DNA of 64,000 nucleotides. Source: Ulva prolifera (lineage: Eukaryota; Chlorophyta; Ulvophyceae; Ulvales; Ulvaceae). Below, piece after piece: positions 18,059-62,771 of this stretch. Within the stretch, counting starts at the first letter, position 1, and every line of letters starts with the position of its first letter. The notes beneath the pieces are model-generated. The model was given only the letters and a program-made list of their open reading frames with translations, was not told where the DNA came from and did not search any database. Made by a program: the position numbers and the translations under genes. The DNA lies in NCBI GenBank assembly GCA_023078555.1, contig CM041200.1, forward strand, positions 9,137,528 to 9,201,527, given 5' to 3'.

Positions 18059-20952
18059 ATGGATCCGCGCCATGCTGCAGCAGTTGCAGGACTGTCAAGT
18101 ACCCATAATGGGCCTACTTCCGCGCGCAGCGAAGACTTACTCGTTGGTCGCATGCGTGCTCAGAGAATCCCTGTAGTGGGTACTTTAATTTCAAGGGACG
18201 GGCGTTTTACGGATCGTGCCTGCGTCGGCCGCAACGACGGTCCACTGTCCGGTCCTGGGGTGTCGGTGTGGTGGTCCCTGGGGGTGGTTCTGCGAGACGA
18301 CGTGGTGGAGAGTCGGACGAGGGAGCTGGGTACGGCCAAGGAAGTGATTGTTACTACCTGTCTTGCGCTCTCCTCCTGGCTGCACGAGCAGGCAATGCTC
18401 GTGTCCTCGTGGGAGGGCAAAGGGAAGACCCCACATGGCTGCCTGGTGCCCCGGCGGTGGAAGCCCCTGTTGGGAAAGACAGAGGTGTGTGTGCCCGGTG
18501 TGCTGGTGGATCAGCTGCGCGCGATCTGCATTTACTGCCAGTCCACTGACACGGGGCCCGGCTAACCTGTGGAGTGGGGCCAGGACTCAGTGCCGCCATT
18601 TGTGCAGGTTGAGATCACCGGCCACGTATGTGAGTCTGGCCTCCCTAAGACCAGAATCACAGCTGAGAGAGACCCGGAGCTTCGCCAGCGGTTCGATCTT
18701 CCTCAGATCAACGTGTGTTGTGAAAGTGCCTCGTAGCGCACAAGGCAGGTGCACATGCGAATGCACGCACGGGGTGACACGTGGCAGTCGCCAGCCCGCG
18801 AATGAGAAGACACATTCCAGCTCTCTGTATAGGTCGAACAAGGTCATGGTTCAAGTATCTGACTCAGATACTGACCATGCAGGTGTGATCCCAGATCTCA
18901 GGCGTCATGTGCTAAGTATTTCGCACACATACTTAACATTTCGCCCAACTAAACTTACGGTATGACGCTTCCACTCGCGCTTGCATTCGAACAGGTATCG
19001 ATGAGTAACCACGATCACATGGGCCCATCATCACGTAAGCACCACATGACGCTTGTGATCGCTCTAACATGACCTCTCGTGTGCACAACTTCCCACAGGA
19101 CATTCCAAACACTCGACGCGCTCCGAGAGAAACTTCCACATGTGCCTCATGAGCTCGCACACGCTCGCTCCCGTGAAGGGGGGAGGTGTTGTGAAAGTGC
19201 CTCGTAGCGCACAAGGCAGGTGCACATGCGAATGCACGCACGGGGTGACACGTGGCAGTCGCCAGCCCGCGAATGAGAAGACACATTCCAGCTCTCTGTA
19301 TAGGTCGAACAAGGTCATGGTTCAAGTATCTGACTCAGATACTGACCATGCAGGTGTGATCCCAGATCTCAGGCGTCATGTGCTAAGTATTTCGCACACA
19401 TACTTAACATTTCGCCCAACTAAACTTACGGTATGACGCTTCCACTCGCGCTTGCATTCGAACAACGTGGGGGGAAAGCGCAAAGGGCCGGACCCCCCGC
19501 GTCCAGACGGTGTGCTCTCTGCACGCATGTTGTTATGTAACGCAGTCACGTATGCTGCCCCCACATCGTGCGCGGCATGCCCTCCGCATTCGTGCACAAG
19601 TGACATGGGTGTTCTCGGTGCAGTGTATCATTGCTCCACCCCGCGACACGTCGTGTGGGCCTGGGCTTCCTTCATGTCTGGGCTGTCCCCTCATCGCACC
19701 AAGTTGTGGACAGCCGGAAAGGCGTCTCCCGCGGTGGAGGGTCACGGGTCCTCCAGGAGCAGGGAGAGACCCACATCCAACCTCCCAGAGGACCTGAACC
19801 CGCTGGTGGCGTGGGTGCTGTATGAACACGCACACTGCCTCCAGCTCGAGAGCATGGATGAAGATGAGCTCGAGCCGTGTCAGTCGATAGCACGGCACAT
19901 TGGGGACCGGTGCCATAGGATGTTGGCGAACACAAACGGGGTCCCTGCACAGCCGGTTTTCCAGCTGACATCGGGCGCGCCGGTGTTAGCTGACATGCAC
20001 ACCTCGCACTCGGACCTCATCAAAGCTTTCGTGCGCTCCTGTGACTTTCCATGAATCCGGCGTGGACAGGGGGACTGCCTGTTGGTCTGTGTGCTGTCCT
20101 GTCCTACCAGGCATTTTTGCCTTATCGCATGCATGATCGTGGCCATGGTGCCCCTGTTTATGTTGATCCCTCAAGTCTGGCCTGTCACCGGCCTGGGCTC
20201 GAGCTGTGTAGTCAGGTGTCTTTGCGTGCAGGATGTCAAGATCCTCGGTGAGTTTGTCGCCGCGCTCGACAACTTGGGACCCTGGGTATTGGCTTATGCG
20301 GCGGAGCACTCTCTGTTTGATTGTGCAGAGGTGCGAGGTGCCACTGACCTGTACATGCCATCGAGAGCTGCGTGACTGTGCAGAGCTGTATATGCTTGCT
20401 GTAGCCCGTCCCCAATTGTTGAGTATACCTGGATCTCGCCGTGCAGGGTGACCGAGTAGCCCGAGCTCTCCGTCCGGCGTGGAGTTCTGTCCAGGCATTC
20501 AACTCCCACATCATGTGGGCATGTGAAGGGCTGCAGCTGACCTCTACGGAACTGGCGTCCTTCGCCATGAATGGGGTCCACCTGTTCATGCATGCTTATC
20601 GGCGCCTCGTCGCCGCGGCTGTGACAGGGGACCCGGGGGCGCCTGTCCTGGAGAGGCGGCGTGTGCAGGACATTCCAGCCTTGGAGCCCAGCCTCCTGGA
20701 TCCCGCCTTTGCCGCCATCCTGGTGTGCACGGTGAATACCAGCAGTGCGCTACCAACCTTTTCTTCTCCATTGTTCAGGATTCAGTTGTTACCTGCTGTA
20801 GCCCCCGATGTGGGGCAAGACTCAGCTTTGCAGACAGTGCTCTCGTCTGAACCACGCGGTGCATCCAGGTTTGGTGAAATCGGGGTATGGTCAGCCCGTC
20901 AAGAGGCTGGCCGACGACCTGATCCCCTTGTGCCCGCCCCACACGCTGTGGC
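18059..20952 (+). pseudogene. Unrecognised multi-exon gene, left part, split by a TRIM and a gypsy LTR
   Basis: A plus-strand gene is traceable by phase. ATG at 18059 opens about 165 codons. An exon starts at 18608 (acceptor TTTGTGCAG) and is cut at 18715 by the TRIM; the frame resumes at 19470 (INV then GGKRKG). Later exons include one ending at 20030, then 20232-20330, 20447-20731 and 20826-20952, all in phase 0. The last holds a CTLCRQC cysteine pair and runs straight into a gypsy LTR. The same frame resumes after the 3' LTR at 62772. No family was recognised. Insertions in two exons imply a broken allele, unless the LTR boundary is an assembly effect. Confidence 0.6.
18716..19464 (+). mobile_element. 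TRIM: miniature nonautonomous LTR retrotransposon, 749 bp
   Basis: Two 278-bp direct repeats, identical as far as I can see, at 18716-18993 and 19187-19464 enclose only 193 bp. LTRs start TGTTGTGA and end CGAACA. The target duplication ACGTG is perfect at 18711-18715 and 19465-19469. A primer-binding-like GGTATCGATGAG follows the 5' LTR and the purine tract GAAGGGGGGAGG precedes the 3' LTR. No coding capacity. Termini, PBS core and purine tract match the gypsy element at 52423-62766, so that family probably supplies its proteins. Identical LTRs indicate a recent insertion. Confidence 0.93.
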
Positions 20953-21728
20953 TGTTGTGAGATGTTCATCTCACCTCCGGCGCAGGCTGGTAGATGCGCA
21001 CATGCATAATGACCTCCAGGTGCTTCCAAGCACGTACATGACCGAATAAGATAAAACGGTCCGGATATTGCATCATCACATAGTCATCAGATTATAATCA
21101 TTTGTCATTTCGCGTTGTCGAATACCCGGACAGCGATACATTATTTGGCCTTTCAACATCATGGGCCTCAGTCGCGCACTGCTCACCATGTGGCTACGAG
21201 GGCGTCGCGCACCAGTCATATCACTCTTCACTAACATCTTCATATATCTCATTATTAAGCACTGATATCATCGTGCATTTAGACGTGCGCACGAACACAA
21301 CTTAAGATCACATCAAACGACACAGCATATCAATAGTTAGCTACGTCACTGGTCATGGGACATGCATGATGACACATTCATAGTCACACGTCATCAGTCA
21401 TACTCAGCATGCACATGGTCAACTGTGCACAGGCCATTCGGAGGCACTAAGTCACCTATGCCCCGAACCCGCTACGCGGTGGCCACGCTAGAGTACTACA
21501 CGAAATTGTTATAAAGTCACATTTGGGGTTAAACTCCGACATGCACGTTATACTCCGAGACGCGCTGTTATCGCACCGGAAGCTACATGCATATGTCAGT
21601 GAGCACAATCATACTCGTCACATCATAACGCTGGCACCGAGTCCGGTGTCCATTGCTTGTCAGCCAATCATATTAGATATCCCGCGATTATTAGGGATTC
21701 CATTCAGTGTGCTCCACTTTTGTGTAGC
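20953..21728 (+). mobile_element. Gypsy LTR, truncated by an assembly gap
   Basis: Matches the first 776 bp of the LTR at 52423 with no length difference, then runs into Ns; about 280 bp of LTR is missing. Left flank is GTGGC (20948-20952), which equals the right flank of the 3' LTR ending at 62766, not the flank of the LTR at 52423. Confidence 0.92.
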
Positions 21729-21828
21729 NNNNNNNNNNNNNNNNNNNNNNNNNNNNNNNNNNNNNNNNNNNNNNNNNNNNNNNNNNNNNNNNNNNNNNNN
21801 NNNNNNNNNNNNNNNNNNNNNNNNNNNN
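21729..21828. other. Assembly gap (100 N)
   Basis: A run of exactly 100 N, the usual placeholder for a gap of unknown size, placed inside a repeated LTR. Sequence after it shows no further LTR or element sequence, so the true gap is not 100 bp. Confidence 0.98.
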
Positions 21829-24300
21829 GATCAGTAAGAGCAAAGCGAAACGAAGCCCTCAGACAGCTTGCAGACCCCCATGGTTACCGCCAAAATGTGA
21901 GCTACGTGCGGCTTTGCTGCTGCGGAGATTCAGTGCAGAGTCACTGCTTTAAATGCCACCATGGCATGGTCGCGCCGCATGATGTTCAGTACATGTGTAC
22001 AAGGCTGAGAGCAAATGACGTTACACCACAGACGCACAGGCTTTTCAGTGTAGCTGACACTGTTCTTGCAGTCGAGTTACAACTGCAATTGTGCTATGAT
22101 GCGAAACATTGTTTACAGAAGTTGGTGGAAGCGCTTGTCTAGGGCCGTTTTGTCAATGCAGCATGTGCTTACGTCATGGCATGAGCTGACCAGCGTTGCC
22201 ACACGTACAACCGAGCTTGGCCGCCCTGGTCCCGTTGCAGCACTGTGGCTAAGCGATACCCATGGAGTAATATGGGTTCATGCCCTCATCTCTGAGACAC
22301 AGAAGTGTGCCTCTGTGACAGTGCTGCTGGTTCGCGCGGCCTCCATCACTGAAACTACTTGTCGGTGCAGCACGGCACCTGCCAGCATCCTGACATGTCA
22401 AAGCCGAGTAGATGCCAGCATGCTGCTTGAGTGCAACGTTGAATCAGCTGCAGCAACATTTCACAGCGCTGAAGTGCGAGTTTTGATGGTCCAATCTGGA
22501 GCGGCCAGGGATCATTAAGGGACGCAAGTGTAGCACATTATTGCTTTGGTCAATCAGTCGTCCCGGTCAATCAGTCGGCCGGGTTGCCAACACGTATCAA
22601 GTGTGGAATGTTGCAAACAAGTTGTGACACCCGCTGACATATTGTTCACTGTGATGTGTGTTCACGTGGACATGCTGTGCAATCCCGAAGCTGTCAATCT
22701 GCTCAGCAAGGGTCCACAAACAGTCCAGGGCGTACACAAGCGCCGCCACACGGTAGTACTACAGCGACATTGGCATCTGCTGGACTGGGACTGATCGACG
22801 ATCCTACTGCACCTTGATGATCCCATAGGAAGAGCAGGCATAGCCTGGCACATATTGGTCAAGGAGTACCCAAACTCGTCAGTGACAGTACAGCACATGG
22901 ACCATACCTAGCAAACCTCATCCACATGCAGGCACCATGCCGGATGGCGCAAAGCTTCACAGACTCCATCTGTTCCCGACCAATTGCTGTGAATCATTCC
23001 CTTCTCGGCAAGTGGAGCACTTCAGAAGCCCAGGTGATCAGACTCCACAATCTGGCGTACCACGCCCATCGCAACCAAAAAGTGCATCACACGGTGAGGA
23101 GCACTTACGCCGTTCATTTGCCACACCTGGCTCCTACATGCCGATAATTCAGTCCTGTGCTCCATGCCTGAAAATCATCAGTTGCCAAATCAGCAGACAG
23201 TGATCATGGTAGCGGCAACCATCACAGTGTAGCAGGCATGAACTAATACTTCTGGTGCCATGGCGACGTGGGCAAGAGGCAGCTGTCGTTGGTGTGGTCG
23301 ATCAAAACCAGACGGCAAGGTGAATTTGAAAGTGCTCCCTGCATGACACAGTGTGAGGTCTTGCACAAAGAACCGATGAGCGGTGCTGACTGCACGGTGG
23401 ACAGGCAGCACCTGCGGCTTCGCAATCACGAGCCATTGAATCCACGCTGCATATGGCTGTTGATTCCCACGTGATGTTGAGATCAAGCCGGCAATTTCCA
23501 CAACATATGCGTCTGCTTGGTAAACCAGCAGTCCAACATCAATCTCCGAGCCATGTAAGTCACGGCCATCTGAACATGGTACCATGATGCTCACGTACTC
23601 ACAAGCAACAAGAGACTGCCACCCATCAGTATGCCGGTATACTGCACACGCATTCACAGACAGAGCCTCATATCTGACGCGCAACGGTGACAATGTCATA
23701 CCAAGCCCACCATGTGGACATCAGGGGCTTGATGTGTGAAAGCCCCACATGTTTCACTTCAGACTTCAATCACTGCCATGGACCCCACAGTCAGTCCACA
23801 ACGCAGCCTGGGATGGTTGATGTTTGAAGGGTTCAGCACAGCGATGTCTTGTTCAACTGTGCCTTGATCTGTGAAGAGGTGTGGCGGGCGATCGAGGCAT
23901 GGTAGTGGGCTGGAGCCACCTGGCCTTGGCATGACTCAGGTCCCGGACTGTCCAGCTGCAAGTCGCAAGGAGTGACTGTGTCATGCCTCAGGGATCTCAA
24001 AGGCAGAAGATCTCGAAAGATCGACTGGAACGCACCATCCGTAGCATGGTTTGGCAGAAAGCTGCCCCAAAGCTTCATGCGGCTGTAAGCGGCTGGCAAC
24101 GAATAGCGCAGAATCTCACGCTGTAGGCGCAACAGTGGATTTAAAGTCTGCGCGAGTGCGTGGTGAGTTGCCATGGCGATGCCGATACGTCTGGCGAACT
24201 CCCCGGCACAGTGACCATGTTACCGTCAAAAGTCCAATTGGTGGAGTTCAATACCTCAGAGCTACCATGATCTAATAAAATCGAGGAATTCGCCTAACGA
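21829..24300. other. Unassigned region; block related to 37600-39100
   Basis: No gene was recognised with confidence. Several short blocks recur in the same order at 37.6-39.1 kb: CACTGTGGCTA near 22242 and 37707, GCCAT-rich coding-like sequence near 23230-23290 and 38605-38650, GCCATGGAC near 23776 and 38762, and a GCGATGTC..CGAGGC segment near 23840-23900 and 38868-38930. Similarity is patchy and old. Confidence 0.35.
23190..23699 (-). CDS. Possible exon of unknown gene (169 codons)
   Basis: The longest open stretch on the minus strand here. Its QLPLAHVAMAPEVLVHA end resembles SCLSKEMAPEVYDCC read on the minus strand of the related block near 38585-38640. This weak protein-level match is the only support for coding. 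No domain recognised and no confident splice sites. Confidence 0.25.
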   Translation of the reverse strand: MTLSPLRVRYEALSVNACAVYRHTDGWQSLVACEYVSIMVPCSDGRDLHGSEIDVGLLVYQADAYVVEIAGLISTSRGNQQPYAAWIQWLVIAKPQVLPVHRAVSTAHRFFVQDLTLCHAGSTFKFTLPSGFDRPHQRQLPLAHVAMAPEVLVHACYTVMVAATMITVC

Positions 24301-26380
24301 TGGGAGCCAAGGTGAAAGCTGCGCTGCGCATCTCAGCGGAGCATGCTCGCCCAGGCTGCCTAAAACCCTCCGCAAACTGCGATGGAAGTACAAGTGCGAA
24401 ACTCTCAGGCCCTGATCGTACAAGCTGGGTGATTGATGTGGCAACGTGTGTGCTTCAAACATACTGATCAAAACGCTGTCTGTTGTTTGCGATTACGCGC
24501 GAGCCCTGCCAAACTGTCTCAGGGATGTGACTCTTCTGTACGGTCGCACGGCATCAGAAGCTCCGGAAATTTTAACAGCTGTATGATTTTGCGTGCTGGG
24601 TCACCATGTGATGTGGAATTCTTTCATGACGACCATTCAAAAAAAAACGCGATCGTTTCGTTCGCATGGCCGTGGAAATGCACTGTGATAAGCTTCTGAG
24701 GCACAGTCCAAGCGGTGCGTGCACGTAACATGCTTTCATCTCGAGCTTTTTGAGTAAGCTGGAGGCACTTCGCTGCTTGTTCCCTCGTAGCACGGAAGCA
24801 CGCTTCTCAGATCATGCCCGTTGCACATAGTTGTGCCACTGATAGAGGACTTCAGCGTCATTTGCACCCCTTTGTTCATGTTTTTTCTCAATTGCAGGGT
24901 ACATTATAGTTAATTGTTTGTAGGGTATGCTCCACCTTCAGCCCCTGACTCCTGATATGTACATGTAGTGCTGCAGCACTGACTGTTGCTTCATCTTGAG
25001 ACGACACAGAGTCACCGCTGTTCGCATCGCAAAATCTTTGCAACCACCTCAGACCATGCTACGCTATGCGCCCAGTGAAATCAGCTGCTGAAATCCCAGC
25101 AGAGAAAGGCTGCTGCCCCGCGTAGTGTGCATCATGTATCATGGGGGTTTGCTGCCGTCTATCTCCCGATCTGCATGGCATTGTTCGTGAAGTCCACAAG
25201 TTTCAACCGCAAAGTCGTCGTATGTTCGCCTGGCGCTGACCCTGGGACAGAGGTAACTGAGGGCAGCAAGTGTGCTGTACAGGCACCAGGTGTTTCCGAA
25301 GCCTCAACTGTGCCCGGCGTGTGTGCGTTGTCCGCCGCCCGCCGGTGTCAGATGCACTTGCGCATGGCTGGTGGCACATGCATGCTGAACAGCATCCAGA
25401 TTGCCTTACAGTGGTGGAGACGATCATGCACGCCTGCGCAGGCGGGGGCCTCTGCTACCCCCGCGCGGGGAGCAAGCCTGATCAGCGCTCCCCCCCTATG
25501 TACCATCCGTCTTCATGACAACGTGGCAGCGAAACATCGAACGTTGCCAATGCTCCACGATGACCATCAACATACCAGTCGTCTACGCGCTTGGCGCATG
25601 CATGTTCTCAGATCAAGTTCACTGCTTGCCGGAATGACATCGAATCATGCCGCAAATGATGGTGGATCGATAGGCCAACACACTGCAGGACCATTTGAGT
25701 CCATGTGGCAATCCAGTGATGTGGCCGCGACGCGCAAGTCGCGACGTGCAGGGCTCCAGTGGTATAGCGGCGATATCACTGGATTGCCACAGTCCACGCA
25801 GTGTTTGTTCGGAAGTGTAAGTGGTTCTTTTGTTTATATATCCATATAGTACAAGCAATTCGATACAGAGGTCCCCTCATGGCCCGTGCTAAGAATGAAT
25901 AAATCTATTGAAAGAGTGAAAAGTGCCACCATCGCTCTGATCTGCCTCTTAGCGTGGGCGCTCAACGTACACTGGAGCAAACAAGCTCGAGCTGATCAGC
26001 ATTTCTGCATCAGACAACGGTAAAAGGCCAGAAGCTATGCCTGTAAAATGTGTTGGCCGGCACAGATCCTGAGCCCACAGCTGCCGGGCAGCGTGTAATG
26101 CATGAGCGGTGCATCCTGCAATTGGTTAACTCTGTGGAACAGCCCAGGTCACCCTACTGCCATCTCAACAGCGTCTTTGATTGTTGCGGACAGGTATTCG
26201 CCAGCTGCGTCCATCAACTGCTTTGACGGCCTCCATTCTGGGTTCAAATCTGCACCAAAGCGCCACTCAGCACCACTCGGCATGATATCATGATCGCATT
26301 TCCACATGGCCACTGCACTGCTACTTGCCTTCAGTCTAGAACATGAGCGTGCAGACACAGGGTGCTCAGGCTCTAGACAC
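24300..26380. other. No recognisable gene; one small inverted-repeat structure
   Basis: A 240-codon open frame at 25127-25849 (plus) has no recognisable motif and its shadow frames are also open, so I do not call it a gene. A 16-bp perfect inverted repeat (GTGGCAATCCAGTGAT, 25705-25720 and 25775-25790) is listed separately. Confidence 0.4.
25705..25790. repeat. 86-bp structure with 16-bp terminal inverted repeats
   Basis: GTGGCAATCCAGTGAT at 25705-25720 pairs with ATCACTGGATTGCCAC at 25775-25790. The 54-bp interior contains a smaller dyad around GTCGCGAC. Could be a tiny MITE or an RNA hairpin; no target duplication is obvious. Confidence 0.6.
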
Positions 26381-26384
26381 CTTT

Positions 26385-26485
26385 CTCTACTGCAGGTTGT
26401 ACGGCCATATGTCATGCATGACATTGCATTGCTGGTCATGGTGTAGCGGCAATGCAATGTCATGGCCGTACAACTTGCAGTAGAG
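26385..26485. repeat. Nested hairpin just downstream of the Hsp70 stop codon
   Basis: Outer arms 26385-26408 and 26462-26485 are 24 bp with one mismatch. Inner arms ATGACATTGCATTGC (26418-26432) and its complement (26449-26463) are perfect. On the Hsp70 transcript this falls about 90-190 nt after the stop, so it would fold in the 3' UTR or near the cleavage site. A role in 3'-end formation or mRNA stability is inference. Confidence 0.75.
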
Positions 26486-26572
26486 CATCCGACCTGTGTA
26501 GAAGTCAACAGCTGCACACAGGCCTGTATGCTCATGATGCATTTATGCAAGCATCGTACAGGCAGTCAATGC

Positions 26573-29500
26573 CTAGAGGATGAGACACCCTTGCAGCACA
26601 TGAAGCCATGCGAAGAGCGCACTGATTGCGTTCCGGACGGCGCAGCTGCACAACGCCTCAAGCTCAGAGCGCCGGCCGTAGTACTCATCAGGCTCCCGCA
26701 GGTCGCTCCCGGACTCCATCCACGCCATCATCTTGTCCTTTGCCCTGACCACTGCAGACACATCGAAGCGTTGCAGATCGCTCTCCAAGCCAGCAGCGAG
26801 GGCCTTCTTGATGCCAAAGATGTACGCTGACAGCGCGTTCTTTGCCTTGTGCTTTTTTAGCACAGCTTCATCGGCTCGCCTGTAGCGCTCGGCCTCTGCA
26901 ATCATCCTCTGCAGCTCCTGCTCGGTGTGCCGGCCGCTGTTGTGGTCGATGGTGATCTTCATCGAGTTGACCGTACCCTTGTGCTTGGCCGTCACGGTCA
27001 AGATGCCATCAGAGTCGATGGTGAACGTGACCTCAAAACTCTGTGAGCCCTTCGGTCCGAGGGGCAGGTCTCGCAACGAAAATGACCCCAGCTGGCTGTT
27101 GAGTGAGGCCACAGCCCGCTCACCCTCATGCACTGGGAAGCTACATGCTGACTGGTCGTCATGCACAGTATAGTAGTCGCATTTGGTCACACTGGTCGGG
27201 ATCTTGGTGTTCCTCGGGATCACGACCGAGAATTTGTCCCCGTGGCAGCTGACCCCCAGGGACAGCGGGGTGACGTCCTGCAGGTGCAGTGACTCGATGA
27301 CACTGCTGGACCACGTGTCAGTCAACATGGCCGCCTGAACAGCAGCCCCGTGCGCAACAGCCTCATCCGGATTGACGGTCTTGCTCAGCAGCTTCCCGCC
27401 AAACAGGTTCTGCAGCAGGGACTGGATCCGCGGGATGCGCGTGGAGCCACCCACAAGCACCACCTCGTCGACCTGGTGCGGCTTCAGGCCCGCCGCGTCC
27501 AGGCAGCGGGTGACCGGCAGCATGCAGCGCTGGAACAAGTCCTCGCACAGGTCCTCGAATTTCGCACACGTGATGGAGGTGAAGAAGTCATCACCCTTGA
27601 TGAGACTTGCGACCTCGACCGGGGCGCAGTCTCTGCTTGACAGGGTGCGCTTTGCAACCTCGGCAGCCCCATGGAGCCGCCTGCGGGCCCGTGTGTCTGA
27701 TGACAAGTCAACTCTGTACTTTTTCTGGATTTCCTGCATATGCAAGGATTGTGCAGGCGTACAGGGGCTTGTTTTAGGTATGTCTCAACAGCGCAATGCC
27801 AGAGCAGAGGCGCAACCTCACCTCTGTCCCAGTCTTGGATGGAATCAGTTCATTTGCATTGCTCTGATAGACGGGCATCATGCGGACATCTGGCAAATGG
27901 GATGCTCGTTTCAGCGTGTATCATGGCATTGGATGCTGCAGTGTCCAAGTGCGTTCACAACGAGATGTGCCGGTTCGAGCGGCAGTGGGGCGAGTGGCCA
28001 AGGGACCAAGCCCCACAAGTGCTACGGGCACCGAGCCACACCCTCACGTGAGGGTGCACGTGGAGACATTTCAGCCAGTGCAGATCACACTGTGGCACAC
28101 GGCAGGCCTGCCTCGCTTGCTTTGTCCTTTAACACACGGCAGGCGAGATGTTTTGCATGCTCCAGAGGTGGCAATCTCAACATGCAGTGTGCAGTGCACT
28201 CGCACACCCTCACCACAAGCGTGCAAGCGTGCCATGGCTTCCTAGGAAGCTGTACCATGGCATACACAGCGCAGGCACGTGGCAACATGCGTCGACGAAC
28301 GCGTCGACGGACGCGCATGGCCACGCTCGGCATGACAGCATCGCTGCTGGCCTGCTCGCGTGAGGATGCTACCTACCCGCAGTGTTGGGTCACCGGGCCT
28401 GATCACATAGAACAATTCCGAGTATCCGAGTCTGGTTTTTGGATGGCATCCCTGATAATGCTGCAGAGTGACCCAAAACTACCTACACGCTGCACACGCA
28501 GACGCCTGTGGCGGCAACACCAGCGTGGCAGAGGAAGGAATTAGCACCTGCATCAAGTGGTCCACGAGGCACTTGTCAAAGTCTTCACCACCCAGGTGTG
28601 TGTCGCCATCCTTTGCGAGCACTTCGAACTTGCCGCCTTCTATCTCTAGTGCAGAAACGTCACATGTGCCGCCCCCGAGGTCGTAGATGATGACCTTGCT
28701 CTTGCCCACGTGGTGGCGCTGCAGGCCGTAGGTCAGTGCGGCTGCAACCGGCTCGCTGATGATCCTGAGCACCTCCAGCCCCGCAATCTTGCCAGCCTCA
28801 ACGGTCGCGGAGCGCTGGGCATCGTTGAAGTAGGCCGGCACGGTGATGACAGCTTGTGTGACATCGCCGTCCAGGAAGTCCTCAGCAAACTTCTTCATCC
28901 GTGCCAGTACCATCGATGAGATCTGCTGGGGAGCGTATTCCTTCATCTTGCCCTCATGTTGCACCCTGAGCACTGGCTTGTCTGCAGTCCCTTCGTGCAC
29001 CTTGAAAGGCCACAGCTGCATGTCTTTTTGCACAACAGTGTCTGAAAAGTGGTGTCCAATCATACGCTTGGCATCATATATCCTGCATGCAGCATTGTGC
29101 ACTGTTCCACGTGGCAAACATTCCATGAGCCTCGAGGCAGGAGATGCAAGCCACAAACATCATGATGAACGCAGGCCGACCTAAATTCAGTCTGAGAACG
29201 GGTCCTAAACAGGCATTGGGACAAACACACACATGTGCACAGCACTGTGCTTCCATGATACAAACCCTCTTATCAGTCAAACGCTGTGGATCAAGGTCTA
29301 GGAGCCCACGGCAGACCCCTTGCATAAGATGCACAGCCCCGGGGACTCGACGCTACGTGCTGCAGCTGTAATTGCAAGTGCCACTTGCGGTGCAATGCAA
29401 GTGCCACTTGCGGTGCAATGCATTTGAACTGTATCACAGGCATTACGGACCCACCCTGCCTCCTCTGCCCACGACCAGTCAAACGTCGCAGGGTCAGCAC

Positions 29501-30012
29501 AACCCTGCTGATTTGGGCACAGATAAGCTCAGGGGCGAGAGTCCTCAGGAGCAGGTCTTGTATGCTTGCAATGCCATCTCGGGAGCGACCTGCCGGTGCT
29601 CGCGGCATGCATAGTAAATGAGGAACACAGGGCCAGAGGGTTTCCTGTGCTGCGTCGACGATCGGCTTAGCTGGCGTCCGATGCTTCGCAACGCCATGGT
29701 GCACCCCCCCGGCATGGCCATGGCCGGTGGCAGATGTCGAGTGCCTCAATCGATTGTATCAATGACGACGCCCCGAGTCCCCAGGCATGAAAACTGGAGA
29801 TCGTACGTATTTTCTGCGTTTCGATGAGCTTGGCTTTTCGCTGCCTCTCCGATGAGTCTCTCGGTGTCAGTGAAGGCGACGTACGACGGCGTGACGCGGC
29901 AGCCCGAGTCGTTGCTGATGATTTCTACACGACCCTTCTGATATACCGCTACACAGCTGTAAGTCGTGCCAAGATCAATACCGACAGCGGGACAGACGCG
30001 TCGGCCTGGCAT
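26573..30012 (-). CDS. Hsp70 chaperone (three exons)
   Basis: Exons 30012-29807, 29082-28548 and 27733-26573 join in frame to about 633 residues, near the usual 640-660. The N-terminal ATPase shows [15 protein letters not shown] (phosphate 1), [13 protein letters not shown] (phosphate 2) and [17 protein letters not shown] (adenosine). The linker DVTPLSLGV leads to the beta substrate-binding domain and helical lid. No N-terminal targeting peptide, so cytosolic or nuclear. It folds client proteins in an ATP cycle with J-proteins and exchange factors. Odd points: Cys replaces the usual Phe in GGGTFD, and the C terminus ends [10 protein letters not shown] with no EEVD (cytosolic) or ER-retention signal, so docking of TPR co-chaperones such as Hop is not expected. 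A further 3' exon cannot be excluded. The divergent neighbour encodes its likely exchange factor. Confidence 0.92.
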
Positions 30013-52422: not shown

Positions 52423-53478
52423 TGTTGTGAGATGTTCATCTCACCTCCGGCGCAGGCTGGTAGATGCGCACATGCATAATGACCTCCAGGTGCTTCCAAG
52501 CACGTACATGACCGAATAAGATAAAACGGTCCGGATATTGCATCATCACATAGTCATCAGATTATAATCATTTGTCATTTCGCGTTGTCGAATACCCGGA
52601 CAGCGATACATTATTTGGCCTTTCAACATCATGGGCCTCAGTCGCGCACTGCTCACCATGTGGCTACGAGGGCGTCGCGCACCAGTCATATCACTCTTCA
52701 CTAACATCTTCATATATCTCATTATTAAGCACTGATATCATCGTGCATTTAGACGTGCGCACGAACACAACTTAAGATCACATCAAACGACACAGCATAT
52801 CAATAGTTAGCTACGTCACTGGTCATGGGACATGCATGATGACACATTCATAGTCACACGTCATCAGTCATACTCAGCATGCACATGGTCAACTGTGCAC
52901 AGGCCATTCGGAGGCACTAAGTCACCTATGCCCCGAACCCGCTACGCGGTGGCCACGCTAGAGTACTACACGAAATTGTTATAAAGTCACATTTGGGGTT
53001 AAACTCCGACATGCACGTTATACTCCGAGACGCGCTGTTATCGCACCGGAAGCTACATGCATATGTCAGTGAGCACAATCATACTCGTCACATCATAACG
53101 CTGGCACCGAGTCCGGTGTCCATTGCTTGTCAGCCAATCATATTAGATATCCCGCGATTATTAGGGATTCCATTCAGTGTGCTCCACTTTTGTGTAGCAC
53201 TTTAGCGTGGCCAGCCTTAGCAGGGGTGTCCTGGGTGCATTCCAAACGGTATTTATACCGTGCACTTGCTGGGATTCGTCCTTCTGTTTTCAGAGTTCGA
53301 ATTGGGGAACCTATTTCCACTCTGTCGTAACACATTTCTGTCTGACACCCATTTTGTTGACCCTGTCTTACTCCATAGTTGATTACAGTCTCCGCACTGC
53401 AACGTAAGGCCCTCTTCATCACGCCAAGTCATATACAGGTGCTCGTCAGCGCCCCGGAGACTTCTACCTCTCTCGACA
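52423..53478 (+). repeat. 5' LTR of the gypsy element
   Basis: 1,056 bp, TG..CA ends. A TATA-like TTATAAAG at about 52979-52986 could drive transcription. Short ORFs inside recur in all three LTR copies and are not genes. Confidence 0.95.
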
Positions 53479-53535: not shown

Positions 53536-54378
53536 ATGTCTGCACCAGAGAGCATTCTAGCCGCGGATTGGGACGTAGTTCACCAGTCCATTATAGACCC
53601 TAGTGACGCGAACTTGTCCGTCGACCATCACATGTCCCAGATCCCAGGGATCTCGTCGTTTTCTCGCGAGGACATTGACTATGTTCGTCGAACAACCGGA
53701 CAGATGCGCTGGTTGGGCACCGTCGTTGCCGAAGCAAGCAAATCCGTCTCGTCTAGCAGTTCTAGGAGTACACTGTTAGCCATGCAGAAAGACGCTAGAA
53801 TGTTGCTTGTCAACGAGGAGCTTAGTGAAGAACTGTGGCCCTTCAAAACCTTAGAACCAAGGTCTTCGGCACGCACAATTGGTGCAACACTGTCACTCGG
53901 TGGCTCGGACACTTGCATGGTTGCATGGGGTCCAGGCCCGGGGCCGACTAGGAATTTGCTTAGCCCTCAGGGCATGTCATTGATGTGCTGGTTAGGCACA
54001 AAGTATGCACAGCCACTCTTAGATTTTGTTTATGCTTTTGCCAAGGATGACAGAGCATTCAAAATGCCATTCCTATCCTGCCCAGCTCAGAACGATATGC
54101 TTGATATGATCGGGGTGTCGAAGCGCGCCGCTACCCTACGCGCGTCGCCAGCTGTGAACAGTCCCGGCGCGGCAATCGTGCACTTAGCCAAGATAGCCGA
54201 CACACACCTGCAAGAGATTGTGTACGCCGTATTTCATGCATGCGAAAGTAGGTCGTTTTGTTTGGACTCAATCAAGCTCAAGATCCCATCAGTCAACGTA
54301 TCAGAAATGGTGAAGTCAGAAGCCATTCAGGGATTGCTCATCATCAGCTGTCACGCAGGTACAGTCAACCCTGCCTGA
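53536..54378 (+). CDS. Gypsy gag N-terminal ORF (280 codons)
   Basis: First ATG after the PBS. No recognised motif; predicted helical, consistent with the N-terminal part of a capsid precursor. It ends inside the next open frame (+1 relative), overlapping by about 65 nt from 54314, so the two could be linked by a frameshift. They may also have been one frame before an indel. Confidence 0.6.
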   Translation: MSAPESILAADWDVVHQSIIDPSDANLSVDHHMSQIPGISSFSREDIDYVRRTTGQMRWLGTVVAEASKSVSSSSSRSTLLAMQKDARMLLVNEELSEELWPFKTLEPRSSARTIGATLSLGGSDTCMVAWGPGPGPTRNLLSPQGMSLMCWLGTKYAQPLLDFVYAFAKDDRAFKMPFLSCPAQNDMLDMIGVSKRAATLRASPAVNSPGAAIVHLAKIADTHLQEIVYAVFHACESRSFCLDSIKLKIPSVNVSEMVKSEAIQGLLIISCHAGTVNPA

Positions 54379-55840
54379 TCTGTCCTCCTTGCCTGATGTC
54401 GAACCAAACTTCATAGACGATCGATCTGCGTCGTGGTTTCGTAGTGCCGAATACACGTTCAAGTCTGTCAAGTTTCCCGCGTTCTCGGGTCTACGAAGCG
54501 ACCAACTTTCGGAACTACGGTGGCACAAGTACCAAAGTGACGCATTGCATGCACGCAAGCACTGCACTCATTTGTCCGAGCGACAAGTCATTCAACATCT
54601 CATGTCGTCATTTGATCGCACGGAGCAGCATTTCACAGTCGCACAACACGCTGCAATGAGACCTCACTGTACTGTCCGCCAATGGCTAGAGACCATTCGT
54701 GACTTTTACTTCACGAATGGACAATTCCGACATAACATTGAGCAGGCATGGCAGTCATACAACGTAGATGAGTCCGCTGATTTTAATGAATTGATACATC
54801 ATGTCACAGAGTACTACCGATTGATCTTTATTGATTACCCACATATGCCTGGTAGACAATCACGTATTGACTTCGCATGCATACTGTTCACAAAGCTGCA
54901 GCAACTCATGCAACCTCAAAGCACATCAGCCGTCAGCTCGACGCTCACGATGTTCTTACCGCTGTCACAACTGCTGGTTAAGTTTAACGACGAATTGAAA
55001 CCTGCAATGAATGAATCCACAGAAAAAGCAGACACGGTCGCTACTGCATTCATAGAATGGTCAGTGTCACAACTGTTGCAAGTCCGAGAATCCGCGAACA
55101 CGGTCAAACGTTTTAATTGTGTTGTTTCGGAAAACCGATTTGATTACGCACGGTTGAAATCGAACCGTAGACATACCCCGCCGGCCGGCAAACGGTTGCA
55201 AGCCGCGGCGGCGGCACTGCAACCCCCTAACAGGAACTCTAGTGTGCAGCCACCTCGTCAGCCTAAGGGACCCTCAGCATCTTCAGATAAGCCAGGTCAT
55301 ATCCCTTTCTTGAAAGAGATGTGTCACACCGACAGCCTAGACAAGTTCAAGATTCGGTTCAACGAGTACCGTCAGCTTCCAGGCATCAGACGGTCGCCGG
55401 ATCTCATAACGGCGATCGAAAAGGAACTCGCGGGCGGCAGCACGGCAGTGCATGTTGCGTTGTCACGCGCAACAGGACCACTACCCCCCTCAGTCAAAGC
55501 AACACCCCTCAGCGTATGTCAGGCAATGATGCGCATGACACATTTGCACCCCAAGAAGCAGTGCCCACTCTGCCCAAATGGCAAGGGTCTCAATCAGACG
55601 CACCCCATGCATCCTATCAGCGAGTGCCCTACATTCAACGAACTTGTGCCTACAGCGAACCGCGAGGCGTTCTTTCAGGACGCGTTCAACCAGACGCGTC
55701 AGATGGTCCCCCTCGCATTGCCTAGCAGCTCGGGCACGCGACAGCAAGACGGCGCCAAACGCGACCGGTATGATCCCAACCGCAAGGGCTCTGACAAGTC
55801 CAAGCGGCCACGACATGACACCCAACAACATATCCGCTGA
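54314..55840 (+). CDS. Gypsy gag-like ORF with zinc-knuckle-like motif
   Basis: Open from just after a TGA at 54311. The helical capsid-like central part is followed by a basic, Pro/Gln-rich stretch and a Cys/His cluster CPLCPNGKGLNQTHPMHPIS then EC, which resembles a nucleocapsid zinc knuckle. The C terminus is very basic (DKSKRPRHD). It ends at TGA 55838-55840, directly followed in the same frame by pol. Confidence 0.75.
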   Translation, partial: SQKPFRDCSSSAVTQVQSTLPDLSSLPDVEPNFIDDRSASWFRSAEYTFKSVKFPAFSGLRSDQLSELRWHKYQSDALHARKHCTHLSERQVIQHLMSSFDRTEQHFTVAQHAAMRPHCTVRQWLETIRDFYFTNGQFRHNIEQAWQSYNVDESADFNELIHHVTEYYRLIFIDYPHMPGRQSRIDFACILFTKLQQLMQPQSTSAVSSTLTMFLPLSQLLVKFNDELKPAMNESTEKADTVATAFIEWSVSQLLQVRESANTVKRFNCVVSENRFDYARLKSNRRHTPPAGKRLQAAAAALQPPNRNSSVQPPRQPKGPSASSDKPGHIPFLKEMCHTDSLDKFKIRFNEYRQLPGIRRSPDLITAIEKELAGGSTAVHVALSRATGPLPPSVKATPLSVCQAMMRMTHLHPKKQCPLCPNGKGLNQTHPMHPISECPTFNELVPTANREAFFQDAFNQTRQMVPLALPSSSGTRQQDGAKRDRYDPNRKGSDKSKRPRHDTQQHIR

Positions 55841-58216
55841 GAAATCGGCAAGCCGTCCACATCATGCCCACAGTGGGCGGTAGAGCCACATGTCTTGGCG
55901 GAATCAGCACGACCACTTGCTTGTATACACTGTGATTCCCAACTCAAGTCAGGCAGCGACTCCTTGTTTGACATGCATAAGCTCACAGGGAACATCACGA
56001 TTACGTTACCATGTACTGAAGATGCACATGTAGCACTGCGGCATGTGCATACAATTGACATGATCTCACATAAGATCACATTAGTCATCCCTGCACGCGT
56101 GTTTGAATCAAACGCATACACACCATATTTGCGCCGGCACACCATGCCCACAGTGGACGAAGCATGTAACATCTTGCAATACACAGCCGGTGCTGCAGTC
56201 CCAGGGAAACAAAAGTACCATATATGCACTCTGGTCACCAATCAAAAAGCATCCATACTGCCTTCTCATAAAGCTGCAGTGGCATACAAATCTGCAGAGT
56301 TCATGGATTTAATATGCACTATGCCTGCTCGCATAAATGGTCACATGTGCAAGGCGTTGGTTGACACAGCCGCAAACCACAGCATGATCACCTCTGCGTT
56401 CTTGTCACGACACTCAATTGCGTTCACATCAACACACACCACCACAATGGGGGTATCAGCATCAGAAGCAGCGTGTCTTGGTTTCATCAAATTGCCAACC
56501 AGAGTAGGAAGACATGTCATAGAGGTCAAGTTCACAGTTGTTGAATCACTACCAACTGCAAGCACAGAGCACCATCCAAACGAAGCACTGTTTGCCCTAG
56601 ATGTCATATCCACTGTCAACATGCAAGTTAATTTCCAGAGTCCACGCATTATCATCACAGTTCCGAATCCCAAGCAGATATGCAAACGGAAAGGGAAGCT
56701 GTGGTGGCATGTGATACATCGAAATCACACCAAGGTCACATCTGAGACAAGTGACCTGGATGATTACTCAATGACACAGAGAGAAATTAAATCACTCACA
56801 AAGAAAGCACGAAAAGGCACACAACCGCTATACATAGCTCACATCAAGCCCACAGTGGAAAACACAAATATGTGCTGTGCTAATAAAAAGGGTTACCTAT
56901 CAGAACAAAATGCGCCTGCACATCAGCCACAGAGCATACAGAACATCCCTCAAGTTGTGCAAGACGTCATCACTAAGCACAAGGCCCCAGGTGGCACATT
57001 AGGACCAGCTCCGCCGAACACGAGTGCATCTGGTTTTGAGATGGACATTGACTTACTGCCAGGTGCCCGACCTAGAGCAGCACGACAGTTTCGCCTCACA
57101 CCTAGGGAACAACTCGAATTAGAGAAACAATTACAACACTTAATCACAATGGGGTGGGTAGTTCCATCCGTTTCACCATGGGCATCTTGTGTGTTGTTTG
57201 CACCAAAGCCGGGAGGCAAACTCAGACTCTGCATTGATTATAGATATCTCAACGAAAACACAGTCAAGAACACCTACCCATTGCCACGAATTGACTATCT
57301 GCTGGACAAACTATGTGGGCACAAGTATTTCTCAGCATTAGACCTACAGTCCGGATATCATCAGATCAAGTTATCAGAATCCGCGGGTCCGAAGACTGCT
57401 TTTCGCACGCCCGACGGTCTGTACCAGTGGACAGTTATGCCATTCGGTCTGACCAATGCACCATCTGTATTTCAACAGGCAGTCAATGTAGTACTGAAAG
57501 GTCTCATAGGTCACATTTGCTTAGCATATCTCGATGACATCATTGTATTGGCACGATCTGAAGAGCAGCATGCGAAAAATTTAGATATTGTTCTCACCCG
57601 ACTCAAGGAACATAATTTCTTTTGCAACACAGACAAGTGTCAATTTGCTCTGCAAGAAATTAAGTATCTTGGCCATATCGTCACAGCTGATATTGTCAAG
57701 CCGGATCCATACAAAGTGGAGGTTCTGCAGAATTGGCCCATATCAGATCTACAAAAATCACCTAACCACATCAGATCATTCTTAGGACTGGCAGGATATT
57801 TCAGGAGATTCATTCCGAAGTTTCCGACATTAGCTGGCCCATTATTGCAACGTGTGAACACAAAGGAACAACTGCCTTGGACTGTACAATGCAATGAATC
57901 ATTCAACAACATCAAGCAAGCACTGGTCAACGCCACATTCATGCGCCACCCTGATAATGACAAATCATATCACATCTACACAGATGCATCCGATTACGCA
58001 TACGGCGCTGTACTGACACAGGAACATGAGGGCAGTTTAGCTCCCATTGCATGGATAGGGCGCAAATTGAACAAATCAGAAGAAAATTATTACACGCTCG
58101 AAAAAGAGATAGGAGCAATTGTGTTTGCATATCGACAATGGCGCTGTTACTTGGAAAACAACCAACCTGTGTTCATCCACTCAGATCACAACCCCCTGAG
58201 ATTTTTACAGACATAG
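55841..58216 (+). CDS. Gypsy pol, first part: protease, reverse transcriptase, RNase H
   Basis: In the same frame as gag after a single UGA, with no ATG near its start, so expression by readthrough is likely. Retropepsin motif ALVDTAANHSMI near 56355-56390. RT motifs: APKPGGKLRLCIDYRYLN, FSALDLQSGYHQI, VMPFGLTNAPSVFQ and catalytic YLDD near 57526-57537. Tether GYFRRFIPKF, then RNase H TDASDYAYGAVL near 57979 and SDHNPLRFL. An in-frame TAG at 58214-58216, where related elements usually carry a Gln-Lys pair, interrupts RNase H; the frame then continues. Confidence 0.95.
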   Translation, partial: EIGKPSTSCPQWAVEPHVLAESARPLACIHCDSQLKSGSDSLFDMHKLTGNITITLPCTEDAHVALRHVHTIDMISHKITLVIPARVFESNAYTPYLRRHTMPTVDEACNILQYTAGAAVPGKQKYHICTLVTNQKASILPSHKAAVAYKSAEFMDLICTMPARINGHMCKALVDTAANHSMITSAFLSRHSIAFTSTHTTTMGVSASEAACLGFIKLPTRVGRHVIEVKFTVVESLPTASTEHHPNEALFALDVISTVNMQVNFQSPRIIITVPNPKQICKRKGKLWWHVIHRNHTKVTSETSDLDDYSMTQREIKSLTKKARKGTQPLYIAHIKPTVENTNMCCANKKGYLSEQNAPAHQPQSIQNIPQVVQDVITKHKAPGGTLGPAPPNTSASGFEMDIDLLPGARPRAARQFRLTPREQLELEKQLQHLITMGWVVPSVSPWASCVLFAPKPGGKLRLCIDYRYLNENTVKNTYPLPRIDYLLDKLCGHKYFSALDLQSGYHQIKLSESAGPKTAFRTPDGLYQWTVMPFGLTNAPSVFQQAVNVVLKGLIGHICLAYLDDIIVLARSEEQHAKNLDIVLTRLKEHNFFCNTDKCQFALQEIKYLGHIVTADIVKPDPYKVEVLQNWPISDLQKSPNHIRSFLGLAGYFRRFIPKFPTLAGPLLQRVNTKEQLPWTVQCNESFNNIKQALVNATFMRHPDNDKSYHIYTDASDYAYGAVLTQEHEGSLAPIAWIGRKLNKSEENYYTLEKEIGAIVFAYRQWRCYLENNQPVFIHSDHNPLRFLQT

Positions 58217-59347
58217 AAGAAGCTAACCGGCAAGCATGCTAGGTGGCTCGAATCACTATCACGCATTGATTGGAGGATCACTTACATTCCGGGCGATGCT
58301 AATTATGTAGCCGATGCACTCAGCAGAGCTACACACCTACCTAATACAGAGGTCACACTACACGACGGAGACACACTGTCAGCGGAAACCCCTCACCAGC
58401 CCTACCAGGCATTAGCATTAACAAACCTTTTAGTCCGCAGGCCAATCTCACCGGTGGATTTTCCCCCCCTCCAATCATCACAGGCACCATCAAGTGGTCC
58501 CACCCAGGCCACCTGCCCACCGGGTCCCCCTCCGGGATTGCCGTGTGCCGTGTCAGCGGCCAATATCAGTTCACCTTCGGCCAGACACATTCAGCCGATC
58601 CAGCTGATGGCCGCAGCGTCACGGATCTCGTCAAACGTCAGCGGACCGCCAAATGGCGCACCGCCACCTCAGACCCCAGCACCACAGCGACCGGCCATTT
58701 TCAGCAGCTCCAGCAGCCTTCACCGGACAGAGCATCTGCTGCCGGATCCCCAGGAGCAGCAGTTACCACCGCCCCCATTCCTGCCGCCACCAGGCCTGCA
58801 TCAGAGACCCGCGAACTCGGCGGATCAGCAGACCCAAAGCAGCGAGAAGTCAGCGCAGCCCTCCGAGGAGACGGCCCAGCCCCCTGAACAGCAGGATCTG
58901 GTGTTGGATCAGACTTCCTTCGAAGAGATCGGTACGCAATTACAATCACAACATGATGCACATTTGTCACTAGATACTGCCTTGGATGACTTTTGGGATA
59001 GGATGCGCATAGGGTACTCACACGACGAAATGTTCAAAAATCCGTCTCCTAAGTATAGATACGATAAACACTTACAAGCATATTTTTTGGACCACAAACT
59101 AGTGGTGCCTGACCATGATAACCTCAGAAAACAAATACTGCTGTGGCATCATGTACACCCCTGGCATGCTCACATGGGCATCAAGCGCACACAGGCACTC
59201 ATCATGGACACATTTCACTGGCCTGACATAAGTACTGACATTGAACATTTCGTCAAGCAATGCCATTCATGTCAGTTAATGAAGTCACCAGGGTGTTCTG
59301 ACAGCAATTGTCACCTTTACCTGTGCCAACTGCATGCTGGAGAGTAG
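58217..59347 (+). CDS. Gypsy pol, middle part: end of RNase H, Pro-rich linker, integrase zinc domain
   Basis: Continues the pol frame after the TAG: KKLTGKHARWLESLSRIDW and YIPGDANYVADALSR finish RNase H. About 150 residues rich in Pro, Gln and Ser follow (58440-58910), then the integrase HHCC domain (HVHPWHAHMG and CHSCQLMK, 59148-59283). It stops at 59345-59347 after a shift out of the integrase core frame. Confidence 0.85.
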   Translation, partial: KKLTGKHARWLESLSRIDWRITYIPGDANYVADALSRATHLPNTEVTLHDGDTLSAETPHQPYQALALTNLLVRRPISPVDFPPLQSSQAPSSGPTQATCPPGPPPGLPCAVSAANISSPSARHIQPIQLMAAASRISSNVSGPPNGAPPPQTPAPQRPAIFSSSSSLHRTEHLLPDPQEQQLPPPPFLPPPGLHQRPANSADQQTQSSEKSAQPSEETAQPPEQQDLVLDQTSFEEIGTQLQSQHDAHLSLDTALDDFWDRMRIGYSHDEMFKNPSPKYRYDKHLQAYFLDHKLVVPDHDNLRKQILLWHHVHPWHAHMGIKRTQALIMDTFHWPDISTDIEHFVKQCHSCQLMKSPGCSDSNCHLYLCQLHAGE

Positions 59348-60744
59348 TAAGTTTAGACATGATCACTCAATTGCCACGCACACAATCAGGGTTTGACTGC
59401 ATTGTCGTCTTTGTAGACCAGTTCTCAAAGATGGTAAGACTCATCCCAACCGATAGCACATTAGACGGACCCGGCTTTGCCAAGCTATTCTTCATGCACA
59501 TATATCCACATTATGGCCTACCACTAGGCATATGCAGTGATAGGGGTGTCCAGTGGAACAACAAATTTTTCAAAAGCATTTGTGATCACATGGGCATCAA
59601 TCTAAAACTGACATTTTCATACCACCCACGGGCAAATGGACAGGTAGAGCGCCTCAACCGTGTGATTGAGGAGGCCCTCCGCCATTTTGTCAGCCCAGCT
59701 CATGATGACTGGGACACATTCTTGCCACATGTTGAATTCAGCATCAACAGTGGTAAGAACGCTAGCACAGGGTGTACTCCCTTCCAACTTAACCGCATTA
59801 CCCCACCATTGTCCCCAACAGCAATTGCATTTAATTTGCCGGAATCACACCGACTGCACACATCTGTACTACATCGCATGTATTATCATTTAGCCAAACA
59901 AGCATTGTGTGAGGCAACACAAAGCATGTGGGCTGGTGCCATCAAAACATCTAGTGAATTTACTGTGGGGAAACTTGTCCTGCTGTCTCTGTCCAAGGTC
60001 GCACTACACCACCCATCACTGCGCCGCAAGTTCACAGCACGCTGGATTGGTCCGTGTCAGATACTCGAACTGGTCGGCTCCCGCGCCGCAAGAATCCAAC
60101 TTCCGGAAACATTACAAGCATTGCGAATGCATGATGTTTTTCATTTTTCGTGCCTCAAGCCGTATAAAGAAGCATATTATCATGAGTGCACGACTGTACC
60201 AGACCACACGGCACACACTGATTCTGAAGCAGTGTTTGAGGTAGAAGCGATATTAGATTACCGCCGCACCCACTGCCCTGCGTCACAATCTTCTGTCACA
60301 GGCCCCACACGAAGCCCACACTTCCTCGTTCGATGGAAGGGTTATTCATCACAACATGACTTGTGGTTACCACCGAGTGAGCTTAACAGTTGCCTAGAAA
60401 AAGTAGCCGATTATCTGTTCCAGAACGCATCCACGGCACAACGTGATATCATCATAGATCAGTTCCCGAAAACATCACGACTTAAGCTCACACACCTGTT
60501 ACAACGGGCACAACGCACCAGGAGCAATCATCCTGCTGCGCCAACCACCATGTCACGGCCGCCACGGCTCAAAACCCGGACCCGCCGACAGTCAAAGAGG
60601 CTGAACACAAGCCCCACACATAAGGCAGCAGTCAGCAGTTTACGATATTGCAACTGCTGCTCTAGTTTGATTCATTGTGCTGCACCCCGCAGAGTCGTTA
60701 AGGAGACGTCCGGACACGATGCCTGCATTACAGGGGAATCTTAG
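59308..60744 (+). CDS. Gypsy pol, last part: integrase core and chromodomain
   Basis: Starts in a frame shifted from the preceding segment; LSPLPVP and VVSLDMITQLPRT are the family's usual bridge after the zinc domain. DDE core: D in FDCIVVFVDQFSKM, D in GICSDRGVQWNN, E in GQVERLNRVIEEAL. The C terminus has ARWIGPCQILELVG and FHFSCLKPYK, then a chromodomain (FEVEAILDYR, HFLVRWKGYSSQHDLWLPP, about 60235-60420), which in chromoviruses guides integration to marked chromatin. A basic tail follows. Confidence 0.93.
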   Translation: MSPLPVPTACWRVVSLDMITQLPRTQSGFDCIVVFVDQFSKMVRLIPTDSTLDGPGFAKLFFMHIYPHYGLPLGICSDRGVQWNNKFFKSICDHMGINLKLTFSYHPRANGQVERLNRVIEEALRHFVSPAHDDWDTFLPHVEFSINSGKNASTGCTPFQLNRITPPLSPTAIAFNLPESHRLHTSVLHRMYYHLAKQALCEATQSMWAGAIKTSSEFTVGKLVLLSLSKVALHHPSLRRKFTARWIGPCQILELVGSRAARIQLPETLQALRMHDVFHFSCLKPYKEAYYHECTTVPDHTAHTDSEAVFEVEAILDYRRTHCPASQSSVTGPTRSPHFLVRWKGYSSQHDLWLPPSELNSCLEKVADYLFQNASTAQRDIIIDQFPKTSRLKLTHLLQRAQRTRSNHPAAPTTMSRPPRLKTRTRRQSKRLNTSPTHKAAVSSLRYCNCCSSLIHCAAPRRVVKETSGHDACITGES

Positions 60745-61698: not shown

Positions 61699-61709
61699 AA
61701 GGGGGGAGG
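61699..61709 (+). other. Polypurine tract of the gypsy element
   Basis: AAGGGGGGAGG directly before the 3' LTR, the expected plus-strand primer site. The TRIM at 18716 has GAAGGGGGGAGG in the same place. Confidence 0.9.
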
Positions 61710-62766
61710 TGTTGTGAGATGTTCATCTCACCTCCGGCGCAGGCTGGTAGATGCGCACATGCATAATGACCTCCAGGTGCTTCCAAGCACGTACATGACC
61801 GAATAAGATAAAACGGTCCGGATATTGCATCATCACATAGTCATCAGATTATAATCATTTGTCATTTCGCGTTGTCGAATACCCGGACAGCGATACATTA
61901 TTTGGCCTTTCAACATCATGGGCCTCAGTCGCGCACTGCTCACCATGTGGCTACGAGGGCGTCGCGCACCAGTCATATCACTCTTCACTAACATCTTCAT
62001 ATATCTCATTATTAAGCACTGATATCATCGTGCATTTAGACGTGCGCACGAACACAACTTAAGATCACATCAAACGACACAGCATATCAATAGTTAGCTA
62101 CGTCACTGGTCATGGGACATGCATGATGACACATTCATAGTCACACGTCATCAGTCATACTCAGCATGCACATGGTCAACTGTGCACAGGCCATTCGGAG
62201 GCACTAAGTCACCTATGCCCCGAACCCGCTACGCGGTGGCCACGCTAGAGTACTACACGAAATTGTTATAAAGTCACATTTGGGGTTAAACTCCGACATG
62301 CACGTTATACTCCGAGACGCGCTGTTATCGCACCGGAAGCTACATGCATATGTCATTGAGCACAATCATACTCGTCACATCATAACGCTGGCACCGAGTC
62401 CGGTGTCCATTGCTTGTCAGCCAATCATATTAGATATCCCGCGATTATTAGGGATTCCATTCAGTGTGCTCCACTTTTGTGTAGCACTTTAGCGTGGCCA
62501 GCCTTAGCAGGGGTGTCCTGGGTGCATTCCAAACGGTATTTATACCGTGCACTTGCTGGGATTCGTCCTTCTGTTTTCAGAGTTCGAATTGGGGAACCTA
62601 TTTCCACTCTGTCGTAACACATTTCTGTCTGACACCCATTTTGTTGACCCTGTCTTACTCCATAGTTGATTACAGTCTCCGCACTGCAACGTAAGGCCCT
62701 CTTCATCCACGCCAAGTCATATACAGGTGCTCGTCAGCGCCCCGGAGACTTCTACCTCTCTCGACA
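61710..62766 (+). repeat. 3' LTR of the gypsy element
   Basis: 1,057 bp; nearly identical to the 5' LTR. Followed by GTGGC (62767-62771), the same five bases that precede the truncated LTR at 20953. Confidence 0.95.
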
Positions 62767-62771
62767 GTGGC

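Follow-up and report, generated by a model that had tools for sequence, protein, structure and literature searches.

Can the two edges of one retrotransposon insertion be separated in a chromosome by about 31 kb of unrelated DNA, or was that DNA placed between them when the genome was assembled? The question is raised by a window of 64,000 nucleotides from the green alga Ulva prolifera (GenBank assembly GCA_023078555.1, contig CM041200.1), corresponding to C5:9137528-9201527 in the searched genome of 88.9 Mb and 44 contigs. The window holds a complete gypsy element, here called element A, at 52423-62766, with CTTCA (52418-52422) before it and GTGGC (62767-62771) after it; further to the left lies a truncated long terminal repeat (LTR) which is itself preceded by GTGGC. 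These motifs had been reported in a first-pass annotation of the sequence, and their coordinates check out, as does the 100-N gap within an LTR at 21729-21828. The DNA between this gap and element A, which includes an Hsp70-family gene and a CACTA-type transposon, is referred to as segment X. The annotation had left the choice between an assembly jump and a recombination of element copies, and this framing is supported, with the jump strongly favoured: the window is very probably a chimeric scaffold, in which X was misjoined into the site of element A by the assembly, and not the product of a real rearrangement. Misassembly is favoured because of the typing of the LTRs, a group of Hsp70 genes on contig C3, a foldback on that contig and the arm of this foldback that is rich in insertions and deletions (indels).

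That the edges at 20948 and 62771 are the two sides of one insertion, as the annotation had proposed, is confirmed, because the joined flanks match copies of the host repeat unbroken, a reading frame continues over the join, and matches to the left flank end at 20952. All seven fetched copies of the host repeat (L002-L008) span the 20952/62772 join in one alignment, thereby displaying the empty site, and are 97.9–98.2% identical to the joined flanks with at most one gap. The frame that had been expected to run across the join (TLW then HWAL) was likewise found open, reading ...HTLWHWAL.... The search with the left flank scored 40 of 107 candidates and yielded 8 loci, the window itself being one; of the 39 other scored matches, 38 stop exactly at 20952 and one stops a base earlier. 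A chance agreement of the two GTGGC 5-mers is ruled out by the empty-site alignment, and two separate insertions at one site are unlikely, as only 2 positions separate the two LTRs of the window element, which makes them one pair.

The mismatch between CTTCA and GTGGC can be judged against the rest of the LTR family. LTR ends were listed with one mismatch allowed, giving 34 right and 36 left ends, and 30 of each were fetched as loci; these contained 21 left and 18 right outer ends, of which 7 and 4, respectively, had no partner. In total, 14 insertions were paired at both ends: ten have exact 5-base target duplications, two are solo LTRs that agree at 4/5 positions, and two are clearly mismatched. 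The mismatched insertions are the window element (CTTCA/GTGGC) and C3:9303326-9313750 (CTTCA/CATGA), and the left flank is common to both. The search that the annotation had suggested, for a second copy with CTTCA at its right, led to element B (C3:9254072-9264455, minus strand), which has CTTCA on both sides and is bordered by the CTTCA flank that stands left of the complete element in the window. An 823-base flank query matched at full length in three places (40/57 candidates scored), the window and two on C3; the third copy, C3:9264456-9265278 on the minus strand, runs into element B. The right flank of element B is matched over its full length only once in the genome (40/262 candidates scored, the remainder being a short diverged repeat). 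The CATGA flank at the C3:9303326 element belongs to element C on C4, which lies between CATGA and CATGA, and the DNA to the right of element C is present in three copies in the genome (3/3 candidates). Intact partner flanks are found elsewhere, namely around B on C3, at A's left edge (20948) and around C on C4.

Segment X itself leads to the same contig as element B. Positions 42879-52422 of the window are letter-identical to C3:9264456-9273999 on the minus strand (9,544/9,544 bases), and a further 1.5 kb of X differs from this minus-strand copy by two single-base indels and no substitution. With one exon of the Hsp70-family gene as query, 19 matches were found in the genome including the window (29/29 candidates scored). 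The next four best all fall within C3:9.2187-9.3492 Mb (C3:9218705-9349153) on one strand, at 48–83% identity and in one case with an internal stop; they are probably a gene array, and their strand agrees with X lying there in inverted orientation, like its C3 copy. Weaker matches are located on C1, C5 (3.84 Mb), C7, C8, C9 and C10. A diverged unit on the minus strand, C3:9340003-9349731, is colinear with window 25921-36619 across a 132-bp palindrome in X, so that the continuity of X looks right as it stands in the window and the arrangement on C3, which turns back at this palindrome, looks wrong. Taken together with the flank of element B, these matches make it most likely that X belongs to C3 beside that element.

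The C3 copy follows the window from 52422 down to the palindrome at 32936-33067, the only perfect even palindrome with arms of at least 11 bases found in the window, and then turns back where the window continues into 21829-32935; window 32936-33500 is matched on both strands near C3:9283803-9283932. The foldback extends for about 38.9 kb between two CTTCA sites, C3:9264456-9303325, a stretch that was read in pieces only (L080, L081, L087, L088). The returning plus-strand arm, in the part that was read, equals the window over 2,551 bases, and its next 6,758 alignment columns hold 51 gap runs, of which 44 are one base long, together with 5 mismatches; this indel-rich arm leads into the element with the C4 flank. 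A large surplus of single-base indels over substitutions is the kind of error typical of long reads that have not been polished. On C4, part of a gypsy element stands no more than three bases after a 100-N gap (C4:5353763-5353862, in locus L086, C4:5351000-5360000), and a second copy of the DNA right of element C in this locus, which has 26 gap openings and 2 mismatches in 3,193 columns, is likely a false duplication. Gaps or low-quality sequence are therefore present at or near the joins, as the 100 N at 21729, the N gap on C4 and the indel-rich arm on C3. The unplaced contig C34 (19,343 bases) also folds on itself, at the hairpin 33531-33561 of the window sequence (C34:2430-2730, L089).

The LTRs indicate where the flank of element B gives way to the A type. 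Those of element B have 26 and 27 differences from the window 5' LTR and 1 between themselves, while those of element C are identical to each other and 13 alignment columns off the window 5' LTR, 10 of which are one insertion. Between the 5' LTRs, likeness is 97.6% for A and B, 98.8% for A and C, and 96.6% for B and C. The window LTRs have no B-type positions, and with LTRs alone being typed, the switch from the flank of B to the A type precedes LTR position 206. In the C3:9303326 element the 5' LTR is of B type, with additional single-base indels, and the 3' LTR is of C type; judged by these types, this element is a second join.

A course of events can be proposed from these features. In the true genome, element A, a 10.3-kb Ty3/gypsy chromovirus, would lie intact within its host repeat on C5, bordered by GTGGC left and right, and X would be the left flank of element B on C3. 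The assembler would have passed from X into the wrong element copy at the LTR edge or close to it, and so have produced a contig that runs from X and CTTCA through element A to GTGGC and its flank; if such a chimeric contig were polished with A's own reads to the LTR edge, the A-type pattern would readily result. The scaffolder would have set this contig beside another ending in A's 5' LTR and written 100 N between them, the two being placed side by side because their outer flanks are true neighbours. The same tangle would account for the false foldback and another misjoined element on C3 and for the indel-rich duplicate on C4. As we read it, the tangle involves 10.3-kb elements of C5, C3 and C4 that are very much alike, and was scaffolded over a 100-N gap, and both clear duplication mismatches among the 14 paired insertions trace to it. 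What was observed is the geometry of one insertion, the second CTTCA copy and the LTR types, together with sequence identity between X and C3, an Hsp70 array on C3, and a foldback there with one arm rich in indels; from these we infer an origin in the assembly rather than in the organism.

Table 1. Features of the analysed window (positions are those of the 64,000-nucleotide stretch)
Feature	Position	Strand	Remarks
Left part of multicopy host repeat	16789..20952	+	Many loci matched, among 39 scored of 2745 candidates
GTGGC, left target-duplication copy of element A	20948..20952	+	5 bp
5' LTR of element A, first 776 of 1056 bases	20953..21728	+	Stops at N gap; 776/776 identical to 52423-53198
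100-N gap within LTR	21729..21828
Segment X, judged misplaced C3 DNA, left flank of element B	21829..52422		30.6 kb
Exons of Hsp70-family gene in X	26573..29159	-	Pfam PF00012 at 26573-27745 and 28482-29159
Perfect palindrome	32936..33067		132 bp (66-bp arms, no spacer); centre of 38.9-kb C3 foldback
Hairpin	33531..33561		15-bp arms, 1-nt loop; foldback centre of unplaced contig C34
CACTA-type DNA transposon	39428..52289		CAA target duplication; same left and right insertion edges in C3 copy
Flank ending in CTTCA	52290..52422		133 bp; complete at window and two C3 places
5' LTR, A-type despite element-B left flank	52423..53478	+
Ty3/gypsy chromovirus internal region	53536..60744	+	Two open reading frames without family match (gag position), protease, reverse transcriptase, RNase H, integrase, chromodomain
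3' LTR of element A	61710..62766	+
GTGGC, right target-duplication copy of element A	62767..62771	+
Right part of host repeat	62772..64000	+	Runs past window end

The same junction could also have formed in the organism, if element A recombined with element B or with a copy of B's flank, through crossover, break-induced replication or reinsertion of a circular molecule, and X was thereby brought beside A. Similar element copies are present, the junction is the exact LTR edge, and the window element has differing flanking 5-mers (CTTCA left, GTGGC right); intact elements without matching target duplications are a known outcome of ectopic recombination between LTR elements (PMC7251063), and the window resembles that outcome in having an intact element with unmatched flanks. 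It differs from it in that the partner insertions are intact, the missing left edge lies 31 kb off, and X equals C3 over 9.5 kb. A recombination would leave X without a complete source, because the C3 copy turns at the palindrome without 21829-32935 and no second place was found for 21829-23000, for which the window was the sole candidate; this is the only case in which absence from the genome-search tables was counted as evidence. A consistent source or reciprocal locus was thus not found on C3. Further, the left junction is an N gap, the identity of X with C3 holds over all 9,544 bases, and on C3 the same flank adjoins an element whose 3' LTR is of C type and whose other flank is that of C4. 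The crossover would also have to fall within the first 205 of 10,344 element bases, which we estimate at ~2% if crossovers are uniform. Inter-element recombination is accordingly a very unlikely origin of the junction. An even less probable reading is structural heterozygosity or a mixed culture, in which one haplotype would have X on C3 and another would have it on C5, with both merged in the assembly: the right part of X does have two clean copies and a further partial copy in C34, but the C3 and C5 copies show no difference over the identical bases, 21829-23000 occurs once, and haplotypes alone do not explain the foldbacks and the indel-rich arm. The view that X is truly at home on C5, with the C3 copies being false, draws on the whole of X being found at C5 only, and is barely credible, as the GTGGC pair and the empty site leave X no room between A's flanks, X forms the flank of element B, which lies between two copies of CTTCA on C3, and the nearest Hsp70 relatives are on C3.

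Several observations sit uneasily with a misjoin and have to be set against it. The window and the minus-strand C3 copies of X are both clean where compared, apart from the two single-base indels in 1.5 kb and one gap near the turning point, and neither looks to be of low quality; the boundary between X and element A has no gap in the window, and the junction at 52.42 kb is clean. The truncated LTR is 776/776 identical to locus L055 (C5:7.78 Mb) as well, and a base at position 1038 that is present in both window LTRs and absent from B and C is also found in the C2 element L040/L041. Because these loci share features of A, LTR typing sets A apart from B and C and supplies no unique mark of A; the 1038 base was considered as a private mark and dropped on account of the C2 element, and the odds given here are independent of it. 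If a crossover were confined to the LTR, a switch in the first 205 bases would not be rare (~19% by our estimate). The centre of the C3 foldback, moreover, is a real palindrome, and such sites can be expanded in living cells too, where palindrome formation at short inverted repeats is a known process. It is conceivable, though very improbable, that the C3 Hsp70 array truly breaks at the 132-bp palindrome and the 31-bp hairpin, and that the hairpin-ended DNA so formed gave rise to the palindromes of C3 and C34 and to fragments that recombined with the gypsy copies on C5 and C4. If so, part of the cell population would carry amplified or relocated heat-shock genes.

The misassembly proposed here has counterparts among described artefacts. 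False duplications in long-read assemblies are associated with gaps between copies, excess sequence errors and incorrect gap filling (PMC9516828); the present case resembles the false duplications and misjoins of that account in its N gaps, one in the window and one on C4, and in its copies rich in indels. It differs in that the joins involve very similar LTR elements spread over three large scaffolds, and read depth is a main criterion there. Foldback, or palindromic, reads are described as harming assembly in PMC12870357 and PMC6218980, and the near-perfect inverted duplication turning at one point is of that kind. A point of difference here is that the C3 and C34 turning points fall on natural inverted repeats, of 132 bp and 31 bp, respectively.

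With regard to the class of element A, the domain order is RVT_1, RT_RNaseH, Integrase_H2C2, rve (under its curated cut-off), SH3_Tf2-1 and Chromo, so that reverse transcriptase and RNase H lie upstream of the integrase and a chromodomain follows it. Like Ty3/gypsy chromoviruses, it has protease, reverse transcriptase, RNase H, integrase with zinc finger, SH3 and chromodomain in this order along with a 5-bp target duplication, and nothing notable sets it apart among the features tested. Its LTRs begin with TG and end with CA and are bordered by a short target duplication, which is an exact 5 bp in 10 of the 14 pairable insertions of the family. The nearest protein relative of the integrase open reading frame (ORF) is 72% identical over 95%. 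Within the host repeat around element A, a 750-bp insert is nested at 18715-19464, and its two ends are identical direct repeats of 279 bp (18715-18993 and 19186-19464); copies on C1-C5 are 98–100% identical, and it resembles a small LTR-type element.

The 31 kb had been annotated as carrying Hsp70, Hsp110 and a CACTA-like element, and this holds in part. The Hsp70-family gene is supported by its PF00012 exons; no second PF00012 gene was found among the ORFs tested, and Hsp110, which this family covers as well, is neither confirmed nor excluded. The CACTA element is recognised by its ends, as inverted CACTACAAGGATGG termini at 39428 and 52289 have CAA on both sides; the identity is assigned because of the termini and the CAA duplication and not from a transposase match, since none of the tested ORFs gave a transposase family above its cut-off (DUF4218, at E 0.0075, was sub-threshold). 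A 344-bp tandem repeat of 4.3 copies occupies 47802-49264 within the element, and the C3 copies have this repeat too. A genome search with window 30000-46000 gave mainly CACTA copies, and the C3 locus was not among its matches (15/89 candidates scored); another (20/21 candidates scored) left unlisted the C3 copy of window 33-39 kb, which direct comparison showed to be present.

While no novelty is claimed for the approach, the sequence by itself can point to misjoins when target duplications are compared across a young family of LTR elements. For U. prolifera, the Hsp70-family gene, the CACTA element and about 31 kb in all have probably been assigned to the wrong chromosome, and false duplicates are probably present on C3 and C4; with X misplaced and these duplicates present, claims about synteny, copy number or translocation that are drawn from this region would be wrong.

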